Below, in pieces: positions 905-24,535 of a stretch of 41,882 nucleotides of DNA. The DNA lies in the IMG/VR virus record IMGVR_UViG_3300008450_000098, positions 1 through 41,882 of that record; one strand, 5' to 3'. A program made the translations under genes and the position numbers. The notes under the pieces were generated by a model. The model was not told the DNA's origin and did not search any database. It saw nothing but the letters and a program-made list of their open reading frames with translations. This DNA is from a virus. Position 1 is the stretch's first letter; each line of letters starts with the position of its first letter.

Positions 905-934
905 AAAGGAAAGGGCCAATAGGCCCTTTTTTTA
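905..934. terminator. Bidirectional rho-independent terminator between convergent genes
   Basis: An 8-bp perfect stem, AAAGGGCC (910-917) with GGCCCTTT (922-929) and loop AATA, is followed on the plus strand by a T-run to 933. On the minus strand the same stem is followed by CC and then TTTTT. It starts just after the gp32 stop (902-904). The TAA stop of the minus-strand gene (932-934) lies at the edge of the plus-strand T-run. One compact element can therefore stop transcription of both converging units. Confidence 0.85.
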
Positions 935-3598
935 TGCCCTTACGCCACCTGACATTGAATTGAATTGCCAATTCATATTAGCCATGTGGGTTGACACAAC
1001 CTGGTTAATAGACGGTCCACCACCTCCACCAGATGAGTTATTGGTCACATTTGTTACACTGGAGTTATCGGCCATTATAGTTGGTGCTTGTTGAGTTTGC
1101 GCAGCAAACATTGAATCAACGACATCGGTCAGTTCTTTTGTTTTCTTAGCAAAGTCTGATGTGAATGATTCAATACTGAATTGACTTGCAAAAGCGCTTA
1201 GTACCGAAGGTTTGGATGTTTCACTCTTGGCAAGCATCGGACCAACAAACGAATCACTGCCCTCTTCATACTTTTCAGCTTCCTTAGCCTCTTTACTTCT
1301 ACGTGCATAGTTCTCAGCATAAGAAGTACTTGTTGTTGCAGTACCTGGATCAGCAGATGCAAAAGATGGAGCACTTGCAGATGCAAAAGATGAAGAACCG
1401 CCTGATGTACCGCCTTTATATTTACCGGTTATACTTGCAATATATTCACCTGTTGTCATCTCAAGTTGTTTATTTGTTTTTCTTACATCGCCTCCTTTTT
1501 CATATCCAAGTACATCAGCAGCGATTGCGTTTGGGTCAGCTTTCAATAGTTTAACAACACCACCAACTCCGACAGCATGAGCAAGGTGAAGATTTTCTGC
1601 AGTAGGCTCTATCCCCATCTTCTTCAACTCTAGTGCATTGCGTTGGGTATATACTCTATAGAGAAGGTCTTGATTTTCAGGGCTGAATGGGTCATTTTTA
1701 GTTAGTCCAGCAATAGATAATAATCCTTCAAGAACTGTTGGCATGAATTGATACTTACCCAAAGCTCCTCTATTTCCTCCTCTAGATTTACCAATTGCTA
1801 TAACTTCACCAATAGTGAGTTGAGATAGATTTTTACCTCCATGTTTTTCTGGTATAGAAGGATCTCCTCCTGGACCACTGAATCCATAGATAGCATCATA
1901 ACCTGCAGCACCACCCTCACTTGAACCGACAATATCCATTGCAGATGTAGATACACTAGCTGATGAAGGTGACATGGCCCCCTGAGGCTTCACATTAGAA
2001 CGGCGGCCGCGTGAAACATTTGCTTCTAAATTCTTAAGTTTATTACCTTCAGTATTTTGTTGTTGATTGTAGTATTGTTGTTTGAGTATATTTTCAGTTT
2101 TTCTCTCAAAGTCAGTAGTCTTGAGAGTTTCGGGCATTGGGCTGAAACTCTCATAACCAAATCTAGCAACATCAGCAGCAACTGCGCCACCAGATATACT
2201 ACCGGACGCGCCTAATCCTACTGCTCCTACAGGTCCAGCAACTAATCCTCCACCAATAAACCCAGCGGTGCCAAATATAATAGAACCTGCTAGACTAGAA
2301 ACTTCTTCAGTTGTCAGATATCCTCTGAGCCATTCTCCATCACTAGAGCTGATAACTCCTGTACTCACCATTATATCAATTTGTTCATATATCAACTGCA
2401 TATTGAAATATGAAATTGCAGCAGCAACACCACTGAGAGCTGCAGTAGCAACACTACCAGCTTTGTATTCTTTTAAAACTTTTAGAAACTTCATGCCTCC
2501 AGAAATCATTCCTAATTCTGATAATGCAGCTAATCTTCCAACAAGAAGCGATATAACACTATTACCTAATTTGAACTTTTTCATAGACTCAAGAGATTTT
2601 TGCATAATCTTGATCTCTTTGTCTGATAAATTTCTCGGAGATGTTGCTGCTGGTATTCTACTAGCAGCTGCAGCGGATGCCGCTGTTTGAGCTACAGGCT
2701 GAGCTTGCTTAGCTGTTTTAGCCATCTGACTAGACTTATATGCACCGTATGCAACTCCACCACCACCAACTGCTGCTGAAACAGTAGCAGACGTAACACC
2801 AGGCACTGGCACCGACACATCATTCATTACATTATATGCAGCTTTTCCCTTGTCAATATAGTACTTTAACTCAGGATTATTAACTATTCCAAGCACAGTA
2901 TCGGAAACGTTTTGGAGTGACTTTGTGATGGTTCCAAAATCTATTTCTTCTAGTTTCTTAACAATTTTTGTTATTTGTTTGGTGACACCATCTAAGGTAT
3001 CCCCCAAAGCACCAAATACTATTCCAAATTCTTTTGTGATTGGCTCAATTACTTTCTTAACACCTGAAGTATCAATACTGCCAAACATACTTTCAACCAA
3101 GTTACCAAATGAATCAGTCAGTTCTTTTTTAACCGAATCATCCATTTTGTCCCATAGTGCCATTTTACCAACTACACCAGCGATTGCAAACGGTAGTACT
3201 TTGGCCAATGAGGAAGCAACACCTGAAGCCACAGAAGAAGCTGCACCTACAACACTCCCTCCAGCTGAGCCAATAGCACCAGCTGTTCCTCTACCAACAG
3301 CACTTACCATACTACCCATTGATCTTGTAATAGACGAAGCAAGATTATTGATGCTCTTAGACATCTGTTCGTTTTGTCTGGAAATATTACTTTGCTTGTT
3401 GTTTATATCTCTGAGAGCAGCAGTGGAGGACGTTTGAGCACGAAGGACAGCCTCCATTGTCTTATTAAGAGTTGTCATAGCAGTAATTTGTCTATTCAAC
3501 AAAGTAGCTTGCTGACCACCTTGACGAAGCTGCTGCATGCGCGTATTGCGCATCTCGCGTAGCTGATCTAGGAATCCTTGGTTTTGACTAGTTGCCAT
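932..3598 (-). CDS. Tape-measure/baseplate hub protein with embedded muramidase-like domain
   Basis: This 888-residue protein immediately follows gp26 and its putative -1 frame, the place where tape-measure genes sit after tail-chaperone genes in many tailed phages. The N-terminus (about residues 1-95) is Gln/Arg/Asn-rich and probably helical. Gly/Ala-rich hydrophobic stretches lie at about 100-150, 375-400 and 433-475, typical of tape-measure proteins that insert in membranes. Residues about 554-728 form a lysozyme-like domain, with SSEGGAAGYDAIYG supplying a candidate catalytic Glu561 and then GGNRGALGKYQFMPTVL, a motif seen in phage muramidases and transglycosylases. The C-terminus is Ser/Gly-rich. 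T4 gp29, the T4 tape measure, is only about 590 residues and lacks such a domain. The start at 3598 has AGGA upstream and overlaps the -1 frame by 11 bases. Tape-measure assignment is inference; the lysozyme-like domain is clear. Confidence 0.7.
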   Translation of the reverse strand: MATSQNQGFLDQLREMRNTRMQQLRQGGQQATLLNRQITAMTTLNKTMEAVLRAQTSSTAALRDINNKQSNISRQNEQMSKSINNLASSITRSMGSMVSAVGRGTAGAIGSAGGSVVGAASSVASGVASSLAKVLPFAIAGVVGKMALWDKMDDSVKKELTDSFGNLVESMFGSIDTSGVKKVIEPITKEFGIVFGALGDTLDGVTKQITKIVKKLEEIDFGTITKSLQNVSDTVLGIVNNPELKYYIDKGKAAYNVMNDVSVPVPGVTSATVSAAVGGGGVAYGAYKSSQMAKTAKQAQPVAQTAASAAAASRIPAATSPRNLSDKEIKIMQKSLESMKKFKLGNSVISLLVGRLAALSELGMISGGMKFLKVLKEYKAGSVATAALSGVAAAISYFNMQLIYEQIDIMVSTGVISSSDGEWLRGYLTTEEVSSLAGSIIFGTAGFIGGGLVAGPVGAVGLGASGSISGGAVAADVARFGYESFSPMPETLKTTDFERKTENILKQQYYNQQQNTEGNKLKNLEANVSRGRRSNVKPQGAMSPSSASVSTSAMDIVGSSEGGAAGYDAIYGFSGPGGDPSIPEKHGGKNLSQLTIGEVIAIGKSRGGNRGALGKYQFMPTVLEGLLSIAGLTKNDPFSPENQDLLYRVYTQRNALELKKMGIEPTAENLHLAHAVGVGGVVKLLKADPNAIAADVLGYEKGGDVRKTNKQLEMTTGEYIASITGKYKGGTSGGSSSFASASAPSFASADPGTATTSTSYAENYARRSKEAKEAEKYEEGSDSFVGPMLAKSETSKPSVLSAFASQFSIESFTSDFAKKTKELTDVVDSMFAAQTQQAPTIMADNSSVTNVTNNSSGGGGGPSINQVVSTHMANMNWQFNSMSGGVRA

Positions 3599-4468
3599 TC
3601 TTCATCATTTCCTGTTGTTTCTTTATGTGGTCTGATAGTAACTGTAAATATAAATCCCTCTCAAAAACAATCATGTTTTCAACATCAGATATTGAGTAGT
3701 TGTGATGCTGAGCCAAAATAAAAATAACTTGGTAGTAATTTTCAAGAGAGTTGTGGCTCAGCGCAATGTAAAAAAATCTTCGAGTGTTCTTAACTCTATT
3801 ACTCTTTCTGTACCTTTTTTATTGGTGTATTCTATTTTGTGATATAGTTTTGGCATTGTATCGAAGAAGGTTTCAAACTGCTTGATTACTGTTGTTGGTA
3901 AACTATCAACAAACTCATCTACCTCTTCAGGTTTATTATCTTTGAATAATACGATCTTATCATCTTCAAAATACTGATCCATGCATCCTTTGATCATGAA
4001 GAACAACCATCCACCAACGTCATTGTTTTCAATAACCTTACTCATCAAATCCATGGAAGGATACTTCATTACGATGCCAGAATTCTCAGATAACTTTACA
4101 ATGTTACTATGATCCGGATCATATGATATTTCAACTTCCTCTGCATCAAGTGTGAACTTGTATGTCTCATCATCTTCAAAGTCTGTGTATGCAAGATCAA
4201 TGACGTTATTGATAGACTTCGCTCTTAATTTCAAGAACAGATACTCAATATCAAATGATGCTAGTTGGTCTACTTTTACTACCGATTCAACATCGCAGTT
4301 GTTTATTACTTGTTTAAGTACATTTACAATATCTGTTTGTTCGCCACTTTGTTTAGCCATCAACAACAGCTTCTCTTCCTTAACTAAGAAAGGTCTGAAT
4401 TTGACTGCTTGTTTTGTTGACGGAATCTTCAACTCAAACACTGGGTGCATTAATTTTGGTAAAGCCAT
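3588..4468 (-). CDS. gp26-T fusion made by putative -1 ribosomal frameshift (tail assembly chaperone)
   Basis: Predicted long product of gp26: 233 residues of gp26 in frame 0, then 60 residues in frame -1 (3770 down to 3591, stop TAG 3588-3590), 293 in total. The -1 frame has a stop three codons upstream of the slip site and no ATG near its beginning, so it is most simply reached by slippage. Its sequence contains HNYSISDVENMIVFERDLY and a Lys/Gln-rich end. Position (between the gp26 homologue and the tape measure) and overlap with the downstream start mirror lambda gpG/gpGT, where the fusion binds and chaperones the tape measure. T4 has gp51 directly after gp26, and this extension may be its functional counterpart (inference). 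Confidence 0.65.
3707..3776 (-). promoter_or_regulatory. Programmed -1 frameshift element: slippery heptamer plus stimulatory stem
   Basis: On the minus strand, frame 0 reads GAT TTT TTT ACA, giving the heptamer T TTT TTT (3776-3770). After a 7-nt spacer, a perfect 9-bp stem can form between GCTGAGCCA (3762-3754) and TGGCTCAGC (3715-3707), enclosing a 38-nt loop that contains a smaller CTTG/CAAG pairing. Spacer length and stem position match known -1 frameshift stimulators. The gp26 stop TGA (3760-3758) lies within the 5' arm. Confidence 0.7.
3758..4468 (-). CDS. 26: gp26 baseplate hub / tail assembly protein
   Basis: The 236-residue protein resembles the T4 baseplate hub gp26 family (PF12322-type; T4 gp26 is 208 residues). 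It begins MALPKLMHPVFELKIPST and continues with KFRPFLVKEEKLLLMA, a pattern typical of these proteins, followed by a mixed alpha/beta acidic region. The family is thought to act in central hub and tail assembly rather than being an abundant virion component. The start at 4468 has a strong ribosome binding site (TAGGAGATATA, reading the minus strand). The 35-base AT-rich gap to the preceding gp54 gene is the only real gap in this operon. Its 3' end carries the frameshift element described separately. Confidence 0.8.
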   Translation of the reverse strand: MALPKLMHPVFELKIPSTKQAVKFRPFLVKEEKLLLMAKQSGEQTDIVNVLKQVINNCDVESVVKVDQLASFDIEYLFLKLRAKSINNVIDLAYTDFEDDETYKFTLDAEEVEISYDPDHSNIVKLSENSGIVMKYPSMDLMSKVIENNDVGGWLFFMIKGCMDQYFEDDKIVLFKDNKPEEVDEFVDSLPTTVIKQFETFFDTMPKLYHKIEYTNKKGTERVIELRTLEDFFTLR

Positions 4469-4503: not shown

Positions 4504-5226
4504 CTAAACTTGTCCTGCAATCTGTATATCAAATGTCTGGTAAGTAAAATTTACAGTGAATTCTGAAAAGGTATCTGTAGAGCTAGTCGACAATGCTATA
4601 TCGCTTATGTTTGTTGGATACAACTTATATATTAAGTACCTTTTAACTGGTACAAGTGGTATATCTGGTGCTCCTCTTGAACCAAGTAAAGACCCTATAA
4701 AAGGAACACCTGCAGCAGATGAAGCAATTGATGCAAATGTCTGTAACAAACCTGCTCCCTTGAACTGTCCGGGTTTACCATGATAAACAGTTATATTCAT
4801 ATCCGTTTCATAGCTTTTTTTGTAAAGATGGGTGTATGATCTATCAGATCCCGGAACCTTGTTAGCGAGCTGTGCTTGAGGATAAATCATTCGCATCCAT
4901 GAAAAAAAGAATCCATACACATAGCTGTTTGAATCATTCATGAAAGTCAAACTTATATCATTCAACGATCCTCTAATAGGCATTTTAATTGAAGGTCCAA
5001 TACCGTACCTAATAGTATCGGCTGTAGCTATGTTTACACCGGGTAAGTTTGCACTTCTACAGAACAAAGTAAGCAATTTACCATTTTCTGTTTTGTTAAT
5101 GTAAAGAGGTCCACCCACATACTCTCTGAGAAATGGAGGGATAGTAATGACAGTCTCAAAAAGATTCGGTCTTTCCAAATCATATTTGTGAACTGCTGAC
5201 TTAAACTCGTTTATATTTAATGGCAT
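4504..5226 (-). CDS. 54: gp54-like baseplate tail-tube initiator
   Basis: The 240-residue protein has a tail-tube fold pattern and aligns by eye with T4 gp54. The start INEFKSAVHKYDLERPNLF parallels T4 LEEFNNQAINADFQRNNMF. A central segment (IKMPIRGSLNDISLTFMND, then FFFSWMRMI) parallels T4 ITGRELDPLVISFRMDSE and the following WVNSV. The C-terminal FSEFTVNFTYQTFDI parallels TTFDVTFAYRVMQAG. In T4, gp54 binds the completed hub and nucleates polymerisation of the gp19 tube. At 240 residues it is shorter than T4 gp54 (320), ending soon after the tube-like strand. The start at 5226 overlaps the preceding stop as TAATG. A gp19-type tube paralogue is the main alternative. Confidence 0.72.
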   Translation of the reverse strand: MPLNINEFKSAVHKYDLERPNLFETVITIPPFLREYVGGPLYINKTENGKLLTLFCRSANLPGVNIATADTIRYGIGPSIKMPIRGSLNDISLTFMNDSNSYVYGFFFSWMRMIYPQAQLANKVPGSDRSYTHLYKKSYETDMNITVYHGKPGQFKGAGLLQTFASIASSAAGVPFIGSLLGSRGAPDIPLVPVKRYLIYKLYPTNISDIALSTSSTDTFSEFTVNFTYQTFDIQIAGQV

Positions 5227-5771
5227 TACTTTTTCTTTTTGTATACAAAGTCATCTAGAGGCAACATCAGTGCCTTTGACCATTCATCGGGCTTAATGTA
5301 GAAAAATCTAGATCTTACATGGCTATTTAGGTACTTCTTGACACATTCCTTGAATGATACAGTTCTTGCTGCAGCACTGAGTAACCTGTAGCTCATGTTG
5401 AGACGCATCTTATCGGTGAATGTTTTATTGTTGGCAAGTACCATTAGATTATCTAAAAGTGCAGCGCGCTGGCCGTATGGTAGGTAGTGAAAGTTAATTC
5501 CCATGAAACCACCCTCGACATTCTGGAATGGGAATATGAGGGGGAATCTATCATACAGTGGAAGAGTTTCTTTGTATTTTGGATCATAGTGAAACAAATA
5601 CATCTTACCGATCGAAAGAGCCTTTGTCAGTCTTTCGTCACCTTTATTAATAACACTGATTGTATTTTTAGAGGACAGATCCTGATAAGTTGTATCGAAC
5701 CAAGTCTGAGCATCGGCTACTTTACCTTTGGTTATTGCTTGACTAAGCATTTGCTGATATGTCTGAGCCAT
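5226..5771 (-). CDS. Probable gp2-like DNA end protector
   Basis: A 181-residue protein between gp4 and gp54. It contains GKMYLFHYDPKYKETLPLYD, then FPLIFPF and GFMGINFHYLPYGQRAALLD, a pattern I associate with proteins annotated as the T4-like gp2 DNA end protector, which caps packaged DNA ends against RecBCD. In T4, gene 2 also neighbours gene 4. T4 gp2 is longer (about 274 residues), so the call rests on the motif and the neighbour and is tentative. The C-terminus is a lysine tail. The start codon overlaps the gp4 stop as TAATG, and the stop overlaps the gp54 start in the same way, indicating translational coupling. Confidence 0.5.
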   Translation of the reverse strand: MAQTYQQMLSQAITKGKVADAQTWFDTTYQDLSSKNTISVINKGDERLTKALSIGKMYLFHYDPKYKETLPLYDRFPLIFPFQNVEGGFMGINFHYLPYGQRAALLDNLMVLANNKTFTDKMRLNMSYRLLSAAARTVSFKECVKKYLNSHVRSRFFYIKPDEWSKALMLPLDDFVYKKKK

Positions 5772-6208
5772 TATTTGATACCTAGATCATCCTCTGTTAG
5801 TATTTGAAATTTCCATTTGCGTTCTTGGCAAAACTTAGCTGCGTATTTCCACTTTGAACTATTTATCCCCCAGGTTTTAACCTCATTGACATATCCCTTT
5901 GTTACTTTGGTTCTGACTTTAGGTGGTTTGGTTTGTGCTTTTGGTTTTATTTCTACTACAACAGTCTCTACTAATCCATCTCTTCCTCTCTTCTTTATCC
6001 AAAAGTCTGGGAAGTATCTATGAACTCTGTTGTCAATTGGTGATAAATATGGAATCGAGAACTCTTCGCTTGCCCATTCTATCACGTCTTGGTGGGCATC
6101 GAGATAGCTCATGAATCTACATTCCCAAAGCGAGCGATAAATAATATTAGTAGGATCCCCCTTGTATTTGGAAGGATTCTTTGGTTTAAAAACTCCGGTA
6201 TAACTCAT
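5771..6208 (-). CDS. 4: gp4 head completion protein (nuclease-fold)
   Basis: A 145-residue protein matching T4 gp4 (150 residues) throughout: MSYTGVFKPKNPSKYKGDP against T4 MAYSGKWVPKNISKYRGDP, then YRSLWECRFMSYLD, VIEWASEEFSIPYLSP, YFPDFWIK, a VEIKPKAQTKPPK core and a final FQILTEDDLG. The E-(V/I)-E-I-K-P-K arrangement resembles TnsA/restriction-endonuclease-like folds. The protein joins filled heads to tails. The frame is open for 80 codons further upstream, but that part would encode unrelated basic and Cys-rich sequence lying under gp48, so ATG 6208 is the start. No clear Shine-Dalgarno is visible on the minus strand. The divergent gp48 start is only 9 bp away. Confidence 0.92.
   Translation of the reverse strand: MSYTGVFKPKNPSKYKGDPTNIIYRSLWECRFMSYLDAHQDVIEWASEEFSIPYLSPIDNRVHRYFPDFWIKKRGRDGLVETVVVEIKPKAQTKPPKVRTKVTKGYVNEVKTWGINSSKWKYAAKFCQERKWKFQILTEDDLGIK
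6136..6143 (+). promoter_or_regulatory. Candidate T4-type late promoter for the gp48 operon
   Basis: GATAAATA differs from the T4 late -10 consensus TATAAATA at one base. It lies about 75 bases upstream of the gp48 start, inside the divergent gp4 gene, where a plus-strand promoter is required because the intergenic gap is 9 bp. The match is short and AT-rich DNA gives such words by chance. Confidence 0.35.
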
Positions 6209-6217
6209 AGGAAATAA

Positions 6218-7231
6218 ATGCCATACGGTTCTTTTTATAAATCTGGTAGCGGTCTTGGTGCAGAGCAGCCTGTCACCCCAGTACGCCAGTCTTCTAGTTA
6301 CACAAGTAGCGCACAGGTTTCCCCAACACTCCCAGATAAAACAATTGAGGAAAATAGATCTACAACCTTGAATTCGGAGAATGCTCCGATTCAGTTTCCT
6401 TCTGATCTTGGTACAGATTATTATATATCTTTCAATGCGTTCAAACACGAAATAGAAAAACCTGAAGATACACGAAGATCTTTTTCATTCAAAAAATCAA
6501 TTAACCTTCCACTTCCTACTAACCTATCAGATAATTACTCAGCAGATTACAATAGTGAGAATCTGTATTTTGTAGGTAATGCACTTAAACAAGGACTGAC
6601 AGAGTTTTCAAGCGGTCCTGGTGGCATTATAGGTGGGTTCGAAAATCTTAACATGAACAGTGCTGGAAAAAAAGGAGCTGAAGCTCTTAATTATCTTGCT
6701 AATAATAAAGGCAACATAGCGGCCGCTGCTGGTGTCATGGCACTCGGAGGAATGGGTGGTCCAATGGGAGCAGCAGCCAAAGCAGCTTTTCAAGTGACGG
6801 CTAATCCTTTTCCTGTTATGATTTTTCAAGGAACAAGATTCAAGCCACCTTTCACATTTGATTGGACACTGTACCCAGAATCACGTGAAGAGGCAGTCAT
6901 TATTAGAAATATAGTTGGATTTTTTAGAAGAGAAATGTTACCTGAAACATATCCTGGTAATCCAGCTATTCTCAAAACTCCATCAGTGTTTGAAATTAAA
7001 ATGACTCCGGAACTTTCACTAAGAAAATTTAAGAGATGTGTGTTGACTAATATGAATGTAAACTACGCACCATCAGGTGTATCTTTTTTGAACGACGTTA
7101 CAAAAGTTTCAGACGGGTTAGGATCAGACCCAACAGCTACTTCAATATCTTTGACCTTCCAAGAAATCGAAATATGGTTAGCAGATGATTACGGCACTTC
7201 TGAAGAAACTCAATTTAGACCAATCGAATAA
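6218..7231 (+). CDS. 48: gp48 baseplate tail-tube cap
   Basis: A 337-residue protein (T4 gp48 is 364). In T4-like phages gp48 sits on top of the hub and, with gp54, forms the platform on which the tail tube polymerises. The diagnostic C-terminal half reads NPFPVMIFQGTRFKPPFTFD, then PESREEAVIIRNIVGFFRR and FKRCVLTNMNVNYAPSG, a tube-like beta pattern. The N-terminal region is Ser/Pro-rich, and an Ala/Gly-rich stretch lies around residues 165-200. The start has AGGAAATAA directly before the ATG, an unusually clear ribosome binding site. The stop overlaps gp53 as TAATG. Confidence 0.85.
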   Translation: MPYGSFYKSGSGLGAEQPVTPVRQSSSYTSSAQVSPTLPDKTIEENRSTTLNSENAPIQFPSDLGTDYYISFNAFKHEIEKPEDTRRSFSFKKSINLPLPTNLSDNYSADYNSENLYFVGNALKQGLTEFSSGPGGIIGGFENLNMNSAGKKGAEALNYLANNKGNIAAAAGVMALGGMGGPMGAAAKAAFQVTANPFPVMIFQGTRFKPPFTFDWTLYPESREEAVIIRNIVGFFRREMLPETYPGNPAILKTPSVFEIKMTPELSLRKFKRCVLTNMNVNYAPSGVSFLNDVTKVSDGLGSDPTATSISLTFQEIEIWLADDYGTSEETQFRPIE

Positions 7232-17617: not shown

Positions 17618-20600
17618 ATGGCACTTAACACCGATTTCAACGTATCGCCTTATTTTGATGATTACAACGAAGAAAAGAACTTTCACCGGGTTCTTTTTAG
17701 ACCAGCTGTTCCTGTTCAAGCAAGGGAACTCACACAGCTTCAGACTATTCTTCAAAATCAAGTTGAGAGATTCGGGGACAACATTTATAGACAAGGTACA
17801 ATCATCAAAGGTTGTAGTCTTAATTTTGATTTCAACTATACCTATATTAAAATCAACGACTTACAGGTTGATGGCCAGACAACTCTTGTCTCGGATTATG
17901 CTAATGGATATATCCAAGACTCGGCAAACCTTAAAGCTGAAATCGTAAATTATGTACAAGGATTGGAGTCGCAAGATCCAGACTTGTCTACTTTGTTTAT
18001 TAAGTACATAAACACGGGTACTGGCGGTAAGAAAACATATGCAAATAGTGATGTATTGACTGTCTATGCAAGAGACTACTCTATACAATCTATTACTATA
18101 AGTTCAGCTGGTACGTTGTATAATAATACAGATGTTATTGTTTTCACTAGCAACACCGGTACCGGTGCTTCTGCTAACCTAGTTACTTATGCAAACGGAT
18201 CTATTAGAGATGTTGTTATTTCTGATGGTGGGTCTGGATATTTGACTGCACCTACTCTTACAATTACAACTTCAACTGGATCATCTGGAGCTCTAACAGC
18301 TCTCAACTATATTGCAGAGATAAGAGTTGCTAACTCTTCTTTCACAGCTCCAGTAGGTACTGGTGCAGCAGTAAGCGTTGGTGATGGTATCATATATCAA
18401 AGAGGTCATTTTGTAAGAGTGCAAGAGCAAACAGCTATTGCTGCCAAGTATACTAATGAGCCTGATGGTGTTGCTCTTGGATTTGTTACCACAGAGTCGA
18501 TTGTAAACAACAGTGTCGACTCGACTTTGCTTGATAATGCTCAGGGGTATAGTAACTATACAGCACCTGGTGCTCATAGATTAAAACTTACTCCGTCACT
18601 AGTTGCTATATCGACAGCAAATGCTGCAAGCAATGCTGAATTCTTGAGTATATTAGAATTCCAGAACGGACAAATCACAAAGAGAAAAACTGGCACAGAA
18701 TTCAATTCTGTTGCATCTGAGCTTGCAAAAAGAACAAGAGAAGAAAGTGGAAACTACGTTGTTAAGCCTTTCTCAATTTACACAGAAGAAAAGACTAGTA
18801 ATACAACTCATTTAAATTTAGCTGTTAGTTCTGGTGTTGGATATGTTGATGGTTTTAGAGCTGAGTTAACCGGAACCGTTCGTGTTCCTGTTAGAAAGGG
18901 AACAGATACCACCACAAGTAATAATCAAACAATTAGCACTAATTTTGGTAACTACGTGGTTGTCAATGAAGTACTTGGTAATTTTGATTTCTCTACTGGA
19001 TCTACAGTAAATCTAAGAGACGTAGCAGCGACAGATAGTACAGATAATTTTGGTGGAGATCCTAATTCACCCGGTTCTATTATTGGTTCAGCAAAAGTTA
19101 AATCATTTATGTACGAATCGGGTACGCCTGGCACTCCAAGTTGCAGATATAGATTGTATCTGTTCAACATTACTATGACACCAGGAAAAGTATTCTCTGA
19201 TGTTAGATCTATACAGGTGACTGGTGGTGTAGCTGATGTTGTACTTGTTGATGGTAGTGCAGAACTAAAAGAAACAAGTTATGATTCACTAATATTTACC
19301 TCTGGTGCAAGTGCTGTTAGTTTCTTTTCAAACGAACAGTTTATCTATAGAAAAGTAGGATCTACATCAATTCTGGGATCTGGAATCGCCTCTGTTCCAT
19401 TAACAGGATCAGAAGAATTTCCATACACTGCATCGAGCACCTTAAATGATACACAAGAGCTCGACTTCATCGTAATTCCAACTGCTAATGCACACTCTAC
19501 AACTAACCTAACTGGTAATGTATCGACGTCTGGTAACGTTGTAACCGGAACCGCAGGGTTCAGTGACTTCATTACAGATCTTGATATTGGTGACTATATT
19601 AAGTTCTCTGGAAACAATTCTTACTACAGAGTGAGTACTATATCTTCTGCAACCTCTCTAACAATAGAGGGTAGTACAGGTCCAGCTGTATCATCTAACA
19701 CAATTTCATACGCATTTCCTAAAAACATTCCCATAAGATTGGATAGAGGAACTGCAAACGTTTCCATTGATAGTAATGGTAATACCGCATCAGTATTCGT
19801 TGGTGGTACAATCAGTGGCACTACATCTGCCACTGTATATCATAACTCAAAAGTTGACGGAGCAAGTCCTAAAGCCAAGACTGTTGTAAAGAGCGTATAT
19901 GTTAAGTTATCTACAGATAAATTATCTGCAAACACCAAAGGACCTTGGAGCATAGGTGTTCCTGATGCTTACAAACTTGTCGGTGTCTATGTTGGGTCAA
20001 GCAACACATATTCTAACTCAACTACCAACTACGCATCTAGTTTTGAGCTAATTACAGGACAGACAGATAACATATACGGTCTTGCTAGTATCCGAAAGAA
20101 ACCTGGAAGTTCTCTTTCGCTTTCAGCAACAAACAACTTGTTGGTTAGAGTAGATTTGTTTACACATGGTACTGGATACTATTTGTCAACAGAGTCATAC
20201 CCAGTTGACGACGCAACAACTCCGCTACCTGCTAATAAGATTAGAACAGAGGATATTCCGTACTATCGTTCTCCTAGAGATAACAAGTACTTTAACTTGA
20301 GAGACTCGATAGATTTTAGACCAATTGTTGCTAACACTGCTAATGCAGCTGCTACCTCTGTGGCTGGTGCTTCTGTTGACCCGTTGAGTACAGAAACCCT
20401 GTCAGGTACTTTGTATTTCCCAACACCTAACGAGTCTTTTGAAGCAGACATCACTCACTATCTACGCAGAGTGGATACTATTGTAATTGATGGATACGGA
20501 AGCGTATCGGTAGTTGAAGGTAAGCCTGAATTGAATCCAGTAGCACCGAGAGCTACAGATGGTACGATGAAACTAGGAACTGTTATTGTTCCTCCATATC

Positions 20601-23600
20601 CATCACTATCTCCAAAAGCTGCTACAGCGGCTCAGAGATTTGAGTATAGCACACTTGTCAAACAAGATCAGGTGAAGGGCTATACTATGCAGGATATTAA
20701 ACAAATTGAAGATAGAATAAACAGACTTGAGTATTATTCGTTGTTAAATACTTTGGAAAAGAATACTACTGATCTTGTCATCCCTAGTGAAGCAAATAAT
20801 CAAGTATCAAGATTCAAGAATGGGTTCTTTGCTGAATCATTCTCTTCTTACGATATATCGAATGTGAATGATCCTGAGTATAGCATTTATATTGATACAA
20901 CAACCTCTACAGCTAGACCTCAGATTGAAAAAACACATATTCAACTTATAGCAAATACAACTGCATCATCTAATGTAACTATCAAAGGCGAGTATGCTTT
21001 GATTGATTACACAGAATCTACATTCCTAGACCAACCTATAGCTAACAAGACTAGAAATCCAGCGCAGTTGTTCTGGACTTTTTTTGGTAGAGTTCAGTTG
21101 TTTCCAAAATATGATGATTACTATGATATTAACAAGGGAAGTGTTAACGTTACAATTGATCTTGCTACTCCTATCAACAACTTGACCAAGTCAATTAATG
21201 ATAATGTTGCGTTTAAAAAAGATGCCAAGCAGATAACAACAGTACCTATAACTGGCTTTTCAACAGTTAGAGCTGCAACTACTACACAGGAAGGTATTGA
21301 TCAAAGAACATTAAGAACAACCACAAATACAACGGTAAACTCTCTGCAACCAGGAGATACTACACTCAACATGCAGCAAGTTGGTGAGTTTGTTACTGAT
21401 TTTGGAATGAAGCCATATATTAGAGCGCAGGATTTGACATTTGTTGCTGTTGGTTTGAGACCTAATGCTATCCACTATGTGTTCTTTGACAAGGTCAATG
21501 TGTCACAGTATTGCCAACAAGCAACTATAAGCAATATTGAAACAATGGATCCTCGTGGTATTCCGTATGAGCCAAATGCAAAACTTGTAGGTTCAAGAGG
21601 CGATGTAATGACTACTGATGCAAATGGAACCTTACTGGGAGTTTTTTCTATACCAGAAGACACATTCTTTGTTGGTGAGAGATCTTTGTTGATATCTGAT
21701 AATAGTAACATTGATTCTCAAGAAACTGCCATATCTTCTGCAGTTATATCGTATAACGCGTACAACTTCTATAAAGATTCCACATCTCTAACAGTAACAA
21801 CAAAAAACCCAGGTACTCTTACTCTTAAGACAGATACAGAATCAAGTTTTTTAGATACCACGGAGACAAGATTAACTCCAAGATTACCACCTCCTCGTCC
21901 ACCTTGTTGCTGTTTTGTTAAAGGAACAAAGATTCTAATGGTAGATGGTTCTTATAAAAACATTGAAGATGTGGAGTTAGAAGATATTGTTATTGGTAAG
22001 AATGGATCACAAAACCGTGTCTTGAAATTCTTGAGACCTAAACTTGGAGATACTGGTGCCACAATGATTGCTTTCAACGGTGGTAAACCTTTCATGACAA
22101 GTGACCATCCAGTATATGTTAGAGGATATGGTTGGAAGTCGTTTGATCCAGTGATGACGGAAAGCAAATATTCAATGGCTGTTGGTATGTATCAGGTTGG
22201 AGATGTAATAGAAACAGATAATGGTTCAGGTTTTGAAATAAAATCAATTGAAGAACATACCGATCAAGATCAAGATCAGACAATTTACAACTTTAGTCTT
22301 AGTGGCAATCATACTTACATTGCTGATGGACTCGTGGTTCATAATAAAGATCCACTAGCCCAGACATTTAATATTAACAATAACGATGGATCTGATGGTG
22401 TGTACTTAACTAAGTTAGACTTATTCTTCAGTGCAAAAGATCCCTCTTTAGGAATTACCGTTCAAATTCGACAAACAGAAAATGGATATCCTGCTCCTTT
22501 TGTACTTGGTGAGAAGTTTATTAATAACTCTTCTATCAACACAAGTACTAACGGATCAACTGCTACTACAGTTACATTTGATACACCAATATATCTCAAA
22601 GCTGGAAGCGATTATACAGTGGTGGTTGTACCAGAACAATATAGTCCTGGATTCTTACTATGGGTTGGTGAGACTGGTGTTCCAGATATAGCAAACACTG
22701 CTTTGGTTTCTAACCAAAACTGGGGTTCCGGTGTTATGTTCCTATCATCCAATGATACAGCGTGGACTCCTTATCAGGGCGAGGATATCAAATTTAAGAT
22801 ATATGTTGCTAACTTTGCAAAGACATCAGCAACTCTGGTGTTGGAAAACGCTCCATACGAATTCTTGAGCTTATCAAATGCATCTGGTACATTTACTCCG
22901 GCCGAAGGAGTAGCTCAAAAATCAAACACATACCTATCCGGAACATTTACTTGTAACACTACTAGTGCTGTAGTTAACACCACATCGTCACAAACAAGTG
23001 CGTTGTCTGTTGGTGACTATGTGTTAGTTGCTGCTGCGAATACCCTTGTACCAAAAACCGGAACTGTTACAGTTGGAAGTACATCAATTACCAATGTTAC
23101 TGGCTCGGGTACTGACTTTGCTAATCAATATTCAGTAGGTGATTATTTATTGATTAGCAACGATATTCGTGAGGTGGTATCGATTGCTGCTAATGGTACT
23201 CTACTAGCAATCGATGCTCCTTTGAGTGCTTCAGTTTCTGGGGTCGCTCATTTTGGAGTTACAGAGAAGCTTCAGATTTCAAGAGTTAATTCTGTCAACA
23301 CAACAGCTGTTACACTTAAAGATACACCACGATATCTAATAGATGGAAGTAATACAAACTTCTACGGTGCAGTTCAAAAAGTTGTTAGAGCAACAATAGA
23401 TGTAATTGATGACAACAAACTTATTTTGAAAGATTCTAATGCTGCAAATTCAATATTTAAATTTGAAGCTGGAAAGAGAATTGTTGGAGAAACATCACAA
23501 GCAACCGCTACGATTGTTTCTGTTGATGATAAGACTGTCAACTTCTTAGAATCTCATATGAGATACATTTCTCCTCCGACTACATCTGTTACTCAGATAC

Positions 23601-24535
23601 AGAATATTGACTCCTTAGCTGGATCTGGATCTAATACTGTAATCATGGAAGGGGTTTCTAATAGTATTAAGTATGAAGGTGAAATTAAATCTAGAAGTAA
23701 TGAAATTACAAGTGGATCTAAATCATTAAAAGTTTATGCAAATCTTAACCGTGCAAATACTTTTAATAATGTTTCACCAGTTGTTGATACTGTTCCAGTT
23801 AGTGCTGTACTACTTAAAAATATTATTAATAATGATTATACAGACGAGACAACAAGATATGGTAATTCACAAGTAAGATATATTTCCAAGAACGTCATAT
23901 TATCTGATGGACTTGAAGCAGAGGATATGAAAGTATTCATCACTGCTTACAAACCAACATCATCAGATATTCTAGTATATGGAAAATTGCTTTCTAGTGA
24001 TGATAATGAATCTTTTGATAGTAAAGATTGGACCTTACTTGAACAAGTAACAGAAGCTAGTCTTTACAGTGATTCTTTGAATGAGAGTAACTTCATTGAA
24101 TATGAATACGGATTCAAATTAACACCTCCTTCTTCTTCATTGGTGGGTGTAATTACATCTTCAAGCAATACTACACTAACAGGATCTGGATCAACATTCA
24201 GTTCTTCATTAGTAGCTAATGATGTTATTAAGGTTGTTCAATCTAACACACTGACTGGCTATGATATTGCGGTTGTTGATGCTGTTGCTAATAACACAAG
24301 CCTAACATTAAAAGCTAACACCTCTTTCAGCGGTTCAGCATCTCTAGAAAAGGTTACACAGCCAGGTGCTGCGTTCAAATACAACAGAGAAAGCAACGTT
24401 ATCACATATCTAGATAGCAACCGTGGTCGTCACTCAATGTACAAGACGTTTGCTATAAAGGTTGTACTAGTTTCAAGCTCATCAAAGTACGTTCCTATTC
24501 TTAAAGATGTGAGAGCATTAGCAGTTTCTATTTGA
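17618..24535 (+). CDS. Giant baseplate/fibre virion protein: DUF4815-like N-terminus and internal Hint domain
   Basis: A 2305-residue protein directly after gp8, where T4 has gp9 and gp10. I do not recognise a single T4 equivalent. The N-terminus (NVSPYFDDYNEEKNFHRVLF, then RPAVPVQARELTQLQTILQN) matches the DUF4815 pattern of marine phage virion proteins. Repeated GSGYLTAPTLTI-type and GTGTxF-type beta modules follow. A Hint domain occupies about residues 1432-1576. It is followed immediately by DPLAQTFNI and VYLTKLDLFFSAKD, a conserved block of large marine phage virion proteins. A helical segment at about 1025-1050 (MQDIKQIEDRINRLEYYSLL) probably trimerises. The C-terminus has VITYLDSNRGRHSMYKTFAI. 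It probably forms part of the outer baseplate or a fibre base. The ribosome binding site is GAGG before the ATG. Confidence 0.8.
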   Translation: MALNTDFNVSPYFDDYNEEKNFHRVLFRPAVPVQARELTQLQTILQNQVERFGDNIYRQGTIIKGCSLNFDFNYTYIKINDLQVDGQTTLVSDYANGYIQDSANLKAEIVNYVQGLESQDPDLSTLFIKYINTGTGGKKTYANSDVLTVYARDYSIQSITISSAGTLYNNTDVIVFTSNTGTGASANLVTYANGSIRDVVISDGGSGYLTAPTLTITTSTGSSGALTALNYIAEIRVANSSFTAPVGTGAAVSVGDGIIYQRGHFVRVQEQTAIAAKYTNEPDGVALGFVTTESIVNNSVDSTLLDNAQGYSNYTAPGAHRLKLTPSLVAISTANAASNAEFLSILEFQNGQITKRKTGTEFNSVASELAKRTREESGNYVVKPFSIYTEEKTSNTTHLNLAVSSGVGYVDGFRAELTGTVRVPVRKGTDTTTSNNQTISTNFGNYVVVNEVLGNFDFSTGSTVNLRDVAATDSTDNFGGDPNSPGSIIGSAKVKSFMYESGTPGTPSCRYRLYLFNITMTPGKVFSDVRSIQVTGGVADVVLVDGSAELKETSYDSLIFTSGASAVSFFSNEQFIYRKVGSTSILGSGIASVPLTGSEEFPYTASSTLNDTQELDFIVIPTANAHSTTNLTGNVSTSGNVVTGTAGFSDFITDLDIGDYIKFSGNNSYYRVSTISSATSLTIEGSTGPAVSSNTISYAFPKNIPIRLDRGTANVSIDSNGNTASVFVGGTISGTTSATVYHNSKVDGASPKAKTVVKSVYVKLSTDKLSANTKGPWSIGVPDAYKLVGVYVGSSNTYSNSTTNYASSFELITGQTDNIYGLASIRKKPGSSLSLSATNNLLVRVDLFTHGTGYYLSTESYPVDDATTPLPANKIRTEDIPYYRSPRDNKYFNLRDSIDFRPIVANTANAAATSVAGASVDPLSTETLSGTLYFPTPNESFEADITHYLRRVDTIVIDGYGSVSVVEGKPELNPVAPRATDGTMKLGTVIVPPYPSLSPKAATAAQRFEYSTLVKQDQVKGYTMQDIKQIEDRINRLEYYSLLNTLEKNTTDLVIPSEANNQVSRFKNGFFAESFSSYDISNVNDPEYSIYIDTTTSTARPQIEKTHIQLIANTTASSNVTIKGEYALIDYTESTFLDQPIANKTRNPAQLFWTFFGRVQLFPKYDDYYDINKGSVNVTIDLATPINNLTKSINDNVAFKKDAKQITTVPITGFSTVRAATTTQEGIDQRTLRTTTNTTVNSLQPGDTTLNMQQVGEFVTDFGMKPYIRAQDLTFVAVGLRPNAIHYVFFDKVNVSQYCQQATISNIETMDPRGIPYEPNAKLVGSRGDVMTTDANGTLLGVFSIPEDTFFVGERSLLISDNSNIDSQETAISSAVISYNAYNFYKDSTSLTVTTKNPGTLTLKTDTESSFLDTTETRLTPRLPPPRPPCCCFVKGTKILMVDGSYKNIEDVELEDIVIGKNGSQNRVLKFLRPKLGDTGATMIAFNGGKPFMTSDHPVYVRGYGWKSFDPVMTESKYSMAVGMYQVGDVIETDNGSGFEIKSIEEHTDQDQDQTIYNFSLSGNHTYIADGLVVHNKDPLAQTFNINNNDGSDGVYLTKLDLFFSAKDPSLGITVQIRQTENGYPAPFVLGEKFINNSSINTSTNGSTATTVTFDTPIYLKAGSDYTVVVVPEQYSPGFLLWVGETGVPDIANTALVSNQNWGSGVMFLSSNDTAWTPYQGEDIKFKIYVANFAKTSATLVLENAPYEFLSLSNASGTFTPAEGVAQKSNTYLSGTFTCNTTSAVVNTTSSQTSALSVGDYVLVAAANTLVPKTGTVTVGSTSITNVTGSGTDFANQYSVGDYLLISNDIREVVSIAANGTLLAIDAPLSASVSGVAHFGVTEKLQISRVNSVNTTAVTLKDTPRYLIDGSNTNFYGAVQKVVRATIDVIDDNKLILKDSNAANSIFKFEAGKRIVGETSQATATIVSVDDKTVNFLESHMRYISPPTTSVTQIQNIDSLAGSGSNTVIMEGVSNSIKYEGEIKSRSNEITSGSKSLKVYANLNRANTFNNVSPVVDTVPVSAVLLKNIINNDYTDETTRYGNSQVRYISKNVILSDGLEAEDMKVFITAYKPTSSDILVYGKLLSSDDNESFDSKDWTLLEQVTEASLYSDSLNESNFIEYEYGFKLTPPSSSLVGVITSSSNTTLTGSGSTFSSSLVANDVIKVVQSNTLTGYDIAVVDAVANNTSLTLKANTSFSGSASLEKVTQPGAAFKYNRESNVITYLDSNRGRHSMYKTFAIKVVLVSSSSKYVPILKDVRALAVSI
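21905..22348 (+). other. Hint (intein / bacterial intein-like) autoprocessing domain coding segment
   Basis: Residues about 1430-1577 of the 2305-residue protein. Block A: three cysteines after a PPPRPP linker, then CFVKGTKILMVDGSYKNIED, with Cys1432 the likely first residue. Block B: MTSDHPVYVRGYGWKSF with the TxxH residues (T, S, D, H). Blocks F/G: YNFSLSGNHTYIADGLVVHN, ending in the catalytic His1575-Asn1576. The +1 residue is Lys1577, not Cys, Ser or Thr, as in type A bacterial intein-like domains. At about 145 residues it is mini-intein sized and has no room for a homing endonuclease. Confidence 0.88.

Follow-up and report, generated by a model that had tools for sequence, protein, structure and literature searches.

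A putative −1 frameshift site at the end of gp26 in an apparently marine T4-like phage

The slippery heptamer of phage lambda is G GGA AAG. In lambda, a single gene that precedes the tape measure gene yields a short and a long chaperone, gpG and gpGT, by a −1 slip close to its 3′ end (Levin 1993; Xu 2004). The locus described here has the same layout, but its heptamer is T TTT TTT, it has no detectable sequence relation to the lambda genes, and the function of its products is proposed by inference.

Among T4-like phages, the abstract of the 2022 study by Vladimirov and co-workers is said to name T4 genes 26 and 51, frameshifting reportedly being retained in several groups. Poly-T −1 signals in the TAC-N genes of T4-like phages are credited to that study (Vladimirov, Gautam, Davidson, Virology 2022; 566:9-15) by the phage Adele paper (PMC12846349), and the PRFect paper (PMC10885494) credits it with the finding that some T4-like phages have separate short and long chaperone genes. 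As far as the work is represented in those papers, the present locus is alike in its short and long forms and its poly-T −1 slip; since frameshifted and split T4-like chaperones are thus already published, it is a further case and not a new kind of system. It differs as a marine metagenome member that combines T TTT TTT with a strong downstream hairpin, and the contrast in stimulators described below may be novel. The TAC frameshift of the Vandenendeviridae and Andersonviridae also has a conserved −1 frame and a poly-T slip motif, but the motif is GTTTTT and the phage families are different; there, the −1 frame is routinely listed by mistake as a hypothetical gene of its own (PMC12846349). Genes 26 and 51 of T4 encode proteins homologous to those described here, T4 gp51 consisting of a gp26-like domain and the same C-terminal helices. 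In contrast to the present locus, the two T4 genes are separate and point in divergent directions, and the end of gene 26 reads GAG TTC TTT GAG, without a slippery heptamer.

The whole stretch of DNA analysed, referred to as the window, is the 41,882-base IMG/VR virus record IMGVR_UViG_3300008450_000098 and covers a T4-like tail and baseplate region. Profile matches identified tail tube cap, wedge and hub proteins, as well as a DNA end protector, a tail tube and a gp32-like protein. At the DNA level, the nearest phage records belong for the most part to marine cyanophages, with approximately 66-71% identity over short stretches. The source appears to be a marine T4-like phage that makes two chaperone versions from one gene. 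The gp26 gene and the −1 frame sit between a tail tube-like ORF and a long ORF that we call tape-measure-like because of its position; the position and length of the latter agree with those of the ORF following gp51 in S-PM2 and ValKK3, and family profile searches gave no tape-measure family at significance. The features of the region are as follows.

4504-5226: tail tube-like ORF, upstream of gp26 (phrog_45, 1.1e-37)
3758..4468 (-): gp26, predicted short chaperone, TAC-N-like, 236 aa; stop TGA 3760-3758; PF12322, phrog_150
3770..3776 (-): slippery heptamer T TTT TTT in X_XXY_YYZ phase; in-phase T_TTT_TT(T/C) kept in relatives
3763..3769 (-): 7-nt spacer from slip site to stem
3754..3762 (-): 5′ arm of the 9-bp stem, GCTGAGCCA
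3707..3715 (-): 3′ arm of the 9-bp stem, TGGCTCAGC
3591..3769 (-): −1 extension past the slip, 60 codons, gp51 C-terminal domain; stop TAG 3590-3588; phrog_634
3591..3818 (-): full −1 open frame, 76 codons, from TAA 3821-3819 to TAG 3590-3588; no start codon ahead of the slip
932..3598 (-): tape-measure-like ORF, 888 aa; ATG 3598-3596; overlaps the −1 ORF by 11 nt

The 3′ end of gp26 reads GAT TTT TTT ACA TTG CGC TGA, and the slippery T TTT TTT that an earlier note on this DNA had placed in the right phase was found at 3776-3770 (-). Most of the anatomy claimed there was likewise borne out, namely the 7-nt spacer, the perfect 9-bp stem and the 38-nt loop with inner pairing at 3769-3707 (-), and the 60-codon −1 extension with its 11-base overlap with the tape-measure-like gene (stop 3590-3588, ATG 3598-3596). 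The hairpin, with an inner helix in its loop, has an MFE of −19.6 kcal/mol. The −1 frame indeed lacks a start, with no ATG, GTG or TTG before the slip; the first is a TTG 18 codons past it, within the conserved domain, and has no good ribosome binding site. The claim that a stop three codons upstream opens the −1 frame proved wrong, the true opener being TAA 3821-3819, 14 sense codons upstream. A TGA near the three-codon position is present in relatives (e.g. locus L003) and absent from the window sequence. An in-phase T_TTT_TTY within the last 12 codons appeared in 0.64% of gp26 codon shuffles, and across the main ORFs of the window (13,619 codon positions) the in-phase heptamer has only 1 other copy, which sits inside ORF 17618-24535, where the frame is kept.

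The best reading of this arrangement, to which we assign a probability of about 0.93, is a programmed −1 frameshift that makes a chaperone pair of the G/GT kind. Most ribosomes would stop at TGA 3760-3758 and yield gp26 of 236 aa, a TAC-N form corresponding to lambda gpG. On T TTT TTT, a smaller share would slip back by one base and pair again, aided by the hairpin that begins 7 nt further on, and would yield a 293-aa gp26-gp51 fusion, a TAC-NC form corresponding to gpGT. If the lambda system is a guide, both forms would cover the tape measure protein, and tail tube subunits would be brought in through the C-terminal domain. We infer the occurrence and the efficiency of slippage, and the chaperone role is proposed by homology as well as analogy.

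To place the locus among its relatives, we assembled 123 loci with 81 distinct slip regions, including the window; the loci are related, so the counts are not independent, and the shuffle tests described below treat them as independent. All 81 distinct slip regions (T_TTT_TTC in 54, T_TTT_TTT in 27) have the in-phase heptamer near the gp26 end and an open −1 frame coding for a homologous domain. A T_TTT_TT(T/C) heptamer was demanded for selection, and the informative count is therefore that of the 20 left-out loci: 14 are T4-type, one belongs to an ackermannvirus (Vibrio phage 207E48.1), four break off short of the gp26 end, and the last is a fragment of the window. The 14 T4-type loci carry a full-length gp51 gene, and gene 26, examined in four of them, had no heptamer in any. 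The frameshift type is found in the Kyanoviridae, KVP40-like vibriophages, Sinorhizobium phiM12, Pseudomonas pf16 and Aeromonas P19, and also in Stenotrophomonas Moby, Citrobacter Ci1, EniLVp02 and D479. In the window clade, diversity in the −1 frame by codon position is 0.30/0.14/0.50, and the frame therefore behaves as a protein under selection. The earlier note had named relatives with a missing heptamer or a broken −1 frame as evidence against its reading; the comparison favours frameshifting, and retention of the heptamer and −1 frame supports its proposal that gp26 becomes a tail assembly chaperone pair of the lambda G/GT design.

Three variants of the slip region were observed. In Pelagibacter phage Mosig (L085 3501-3698), T_TTT_TTC lies 8 codons ahead of the gp26 stop, compared with 0-3 in all other loci. 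Vibrio phage 207E48.1 (L094 3060-3306) has gp26 and a gp51-like downstream frame without a T6 heptamer; its gp26 ends ACG CTT TTT CGG TAA and overlaps an ATG (TAATG), and it may use coupling or a different slip. In T4-type gene 26 (L088 1304-1858 (-) and L082 5803-6429 (-)) the slip region is degenerate, reading GAG TTC TTT GAG in T4 and GAT ATT TTT TCT in Thanatos, and may be the relic of a lost frameshift site.

The gp26 protein matches PF12322 (T4_baseplate) at 2.7e-51 and phrog_150 (baseplate hub) at 3.5e-57, and its AF2 model has a pLDDT of 87.7. The −1 peptide matches phrog_634, the baseplate hub assembly catalyst gp51, at 1.1e-20, and 572 phage records contain a tblastn match to it at E<=1. 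T4 gp51 has 249 aa, of which residues 1-201 match the gp26 family PF12322 at 3.9e-52, and T4 gp26 and gp51 are related by BLASTP at 2e-6. The gp26 profile and the T4-type gp51 profile also align at 2e-6, with the DFF of the slip site beside a DIF/DVF stretch of gp51. In AlphaFold models, strands and helices follow one another in largely the same order in gp26 and T4-type gp51, and gp51 continues with three extra C-terminal helices. T4 gp51 is thus a gp26 paralogue joined to the same C-terminal domain as the −1 peptide, and from this likeness in sequence and model it looks like a standalone copy of the window's frameshift product. The suggestion that the extension possibly replaces a separate T4 gp51 is better put as homology with the gp51 C-terminal domain. 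In cyanophages and marine vibriophages, gp51 has been described as short by approximately 200 N-terminal residues (Sullivan 2010, PMC3037559); frameshifting would explain this apparent truncation, with gp26 supplying the missing N-terminal part. T4 gp51 is needed for assembly and is not in the particle (PMC3004832). In the fold comparison of gp26, the HK97 chaperone 2ob9 was the 7th match (E 1.5, probability 0.35), and it was not among the matches listed for gp51; against solved structures, gp26 gave no match by profile and none significant by fold.

Most GenBank records, among them those of S-PM2, D479, Mosig, ValKK3, phiM12 and P-SSM7, annotate a separate gp51 CDS, and the gp51 annotated in ValKK3, Moby, EniLVp02 and S-CRM01 starts on the final base of the codon that stops gp26, as would be expected if gp51 were a short gene with its own start or one coupled to the gp26 stop. 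We consider this very unlikely, since homology continues through the slip site into start-less codons, the annotated starts vary from one phage to another and truncate the domain (P-SSM7, D479, Mosig), the domain in T4 is joined in frame to a paralogue of gp26, and the first −1 start of the window is the internal TTG noted above. An independent gp51 start in the window was rejected, as no start lies ahead of the domain. In all 15 annotated records of the frameshift type that we examined, gp51 is either separate or omitted and never part of a joined CDS; databases therefore widely misdescribe the protein.

If translation shifts frame at this site, the hairpin 7 nt downstream is a putative stimulatory element. 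We folded the 65 nt past the slip and compared them with synonymous-codon shuffles, which gave z −4.3 (p 0.003) for the window. In the window clade, the fold exceeded shuffles at p<0.05 in 16 of 17 members (mean z −3.6); it was better than shuffles in 8/10 of the other T7 loci (z −2.8) and in 12/54 of those with T_TTT_TTC (T6C loci; z −0.7). In the window-clade alignment, 84% of cells pair, compared with 38-47% when slid, and the structure has 10 two-sided changes against 4.2 in shuffles (0/500). These changes are all inside the loop (columns 19/52, 32/45 and 35/42); the 9-bp stem proper has no two-sided changes in this alignment and varies on one side only. The hairpin is under selection in the window clade. 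When it was compared with the known RNA families of Rfam, all matches were below threshold and on the opposite strand.

The mainstream cyanophages have GAGGG 9 nt upstream of the slip and a stop 0-1 codons after it, and the stem is mostly missing. GAGG, GGAG or AGGA lies shortly upstream of the slip in 47 of the 54 T6C loci, where the Glu of a Glu-Gly motif is GAG in 40/44 cases, compared with a share of 0.35 for GAG at the ends of gp26. In anti-Shine-Dalgarno pairing, none of the T6C loci individually exceeded synonymous shuffles at p<0.05, and a Shine-Dalgarno-like role for the upstream motif is therefore suggestive only. A motif of this type occurs in 2/17 members of the window clade, which has no strong Shine-Dalgarno-like pairing.

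RNA polymerase slips on poly-T in bacteria, and the window has a run of seven T; a fusion made from shifted mRNA rather than by a shifting ribosome is nevertheless very improbable, since many relatives have six T only (T_TTT_TTC) in strict frameshift phase, the window-clade hairpin and the upstream GAGGG of others fit known ribosomal stimulators, and the frame is kept at the other in-phase T7, in ORF 17618-24535. Within the frameshifting reading, we see an even chance that T4-like phages have swapped stimulators on one deeply conserved slip site, with a hairpin in the window clade and GAGGG in mainstream cyanophages. If so, different means would serve to set slippage at a similar ratio. The comparison also provides a natural set for studying the action of different stimulators on one slip site.

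Two further ORFs of the window deserve comment. ORF 17618-24535 (+) encodes a 2305-aa DUF4815 protein with a Hint/intein-like domain at residues ~1432-1576 (DNA ~21911-22345; PF05203 7.4e-10, TIGR01443 intein C-terminal 0.0054). The domain begins with Cys-Phe and ends with VVHN, followed by Lys; the insert is therefore possibly a bacterial-intein-like element without a Cys, Ser or Thr after it. In the gp4-like ORF at 5771-6448 (-), the family match starts only at residue 81, and the GTG start of this mechanically called ORF is therefore probably too far upstream.
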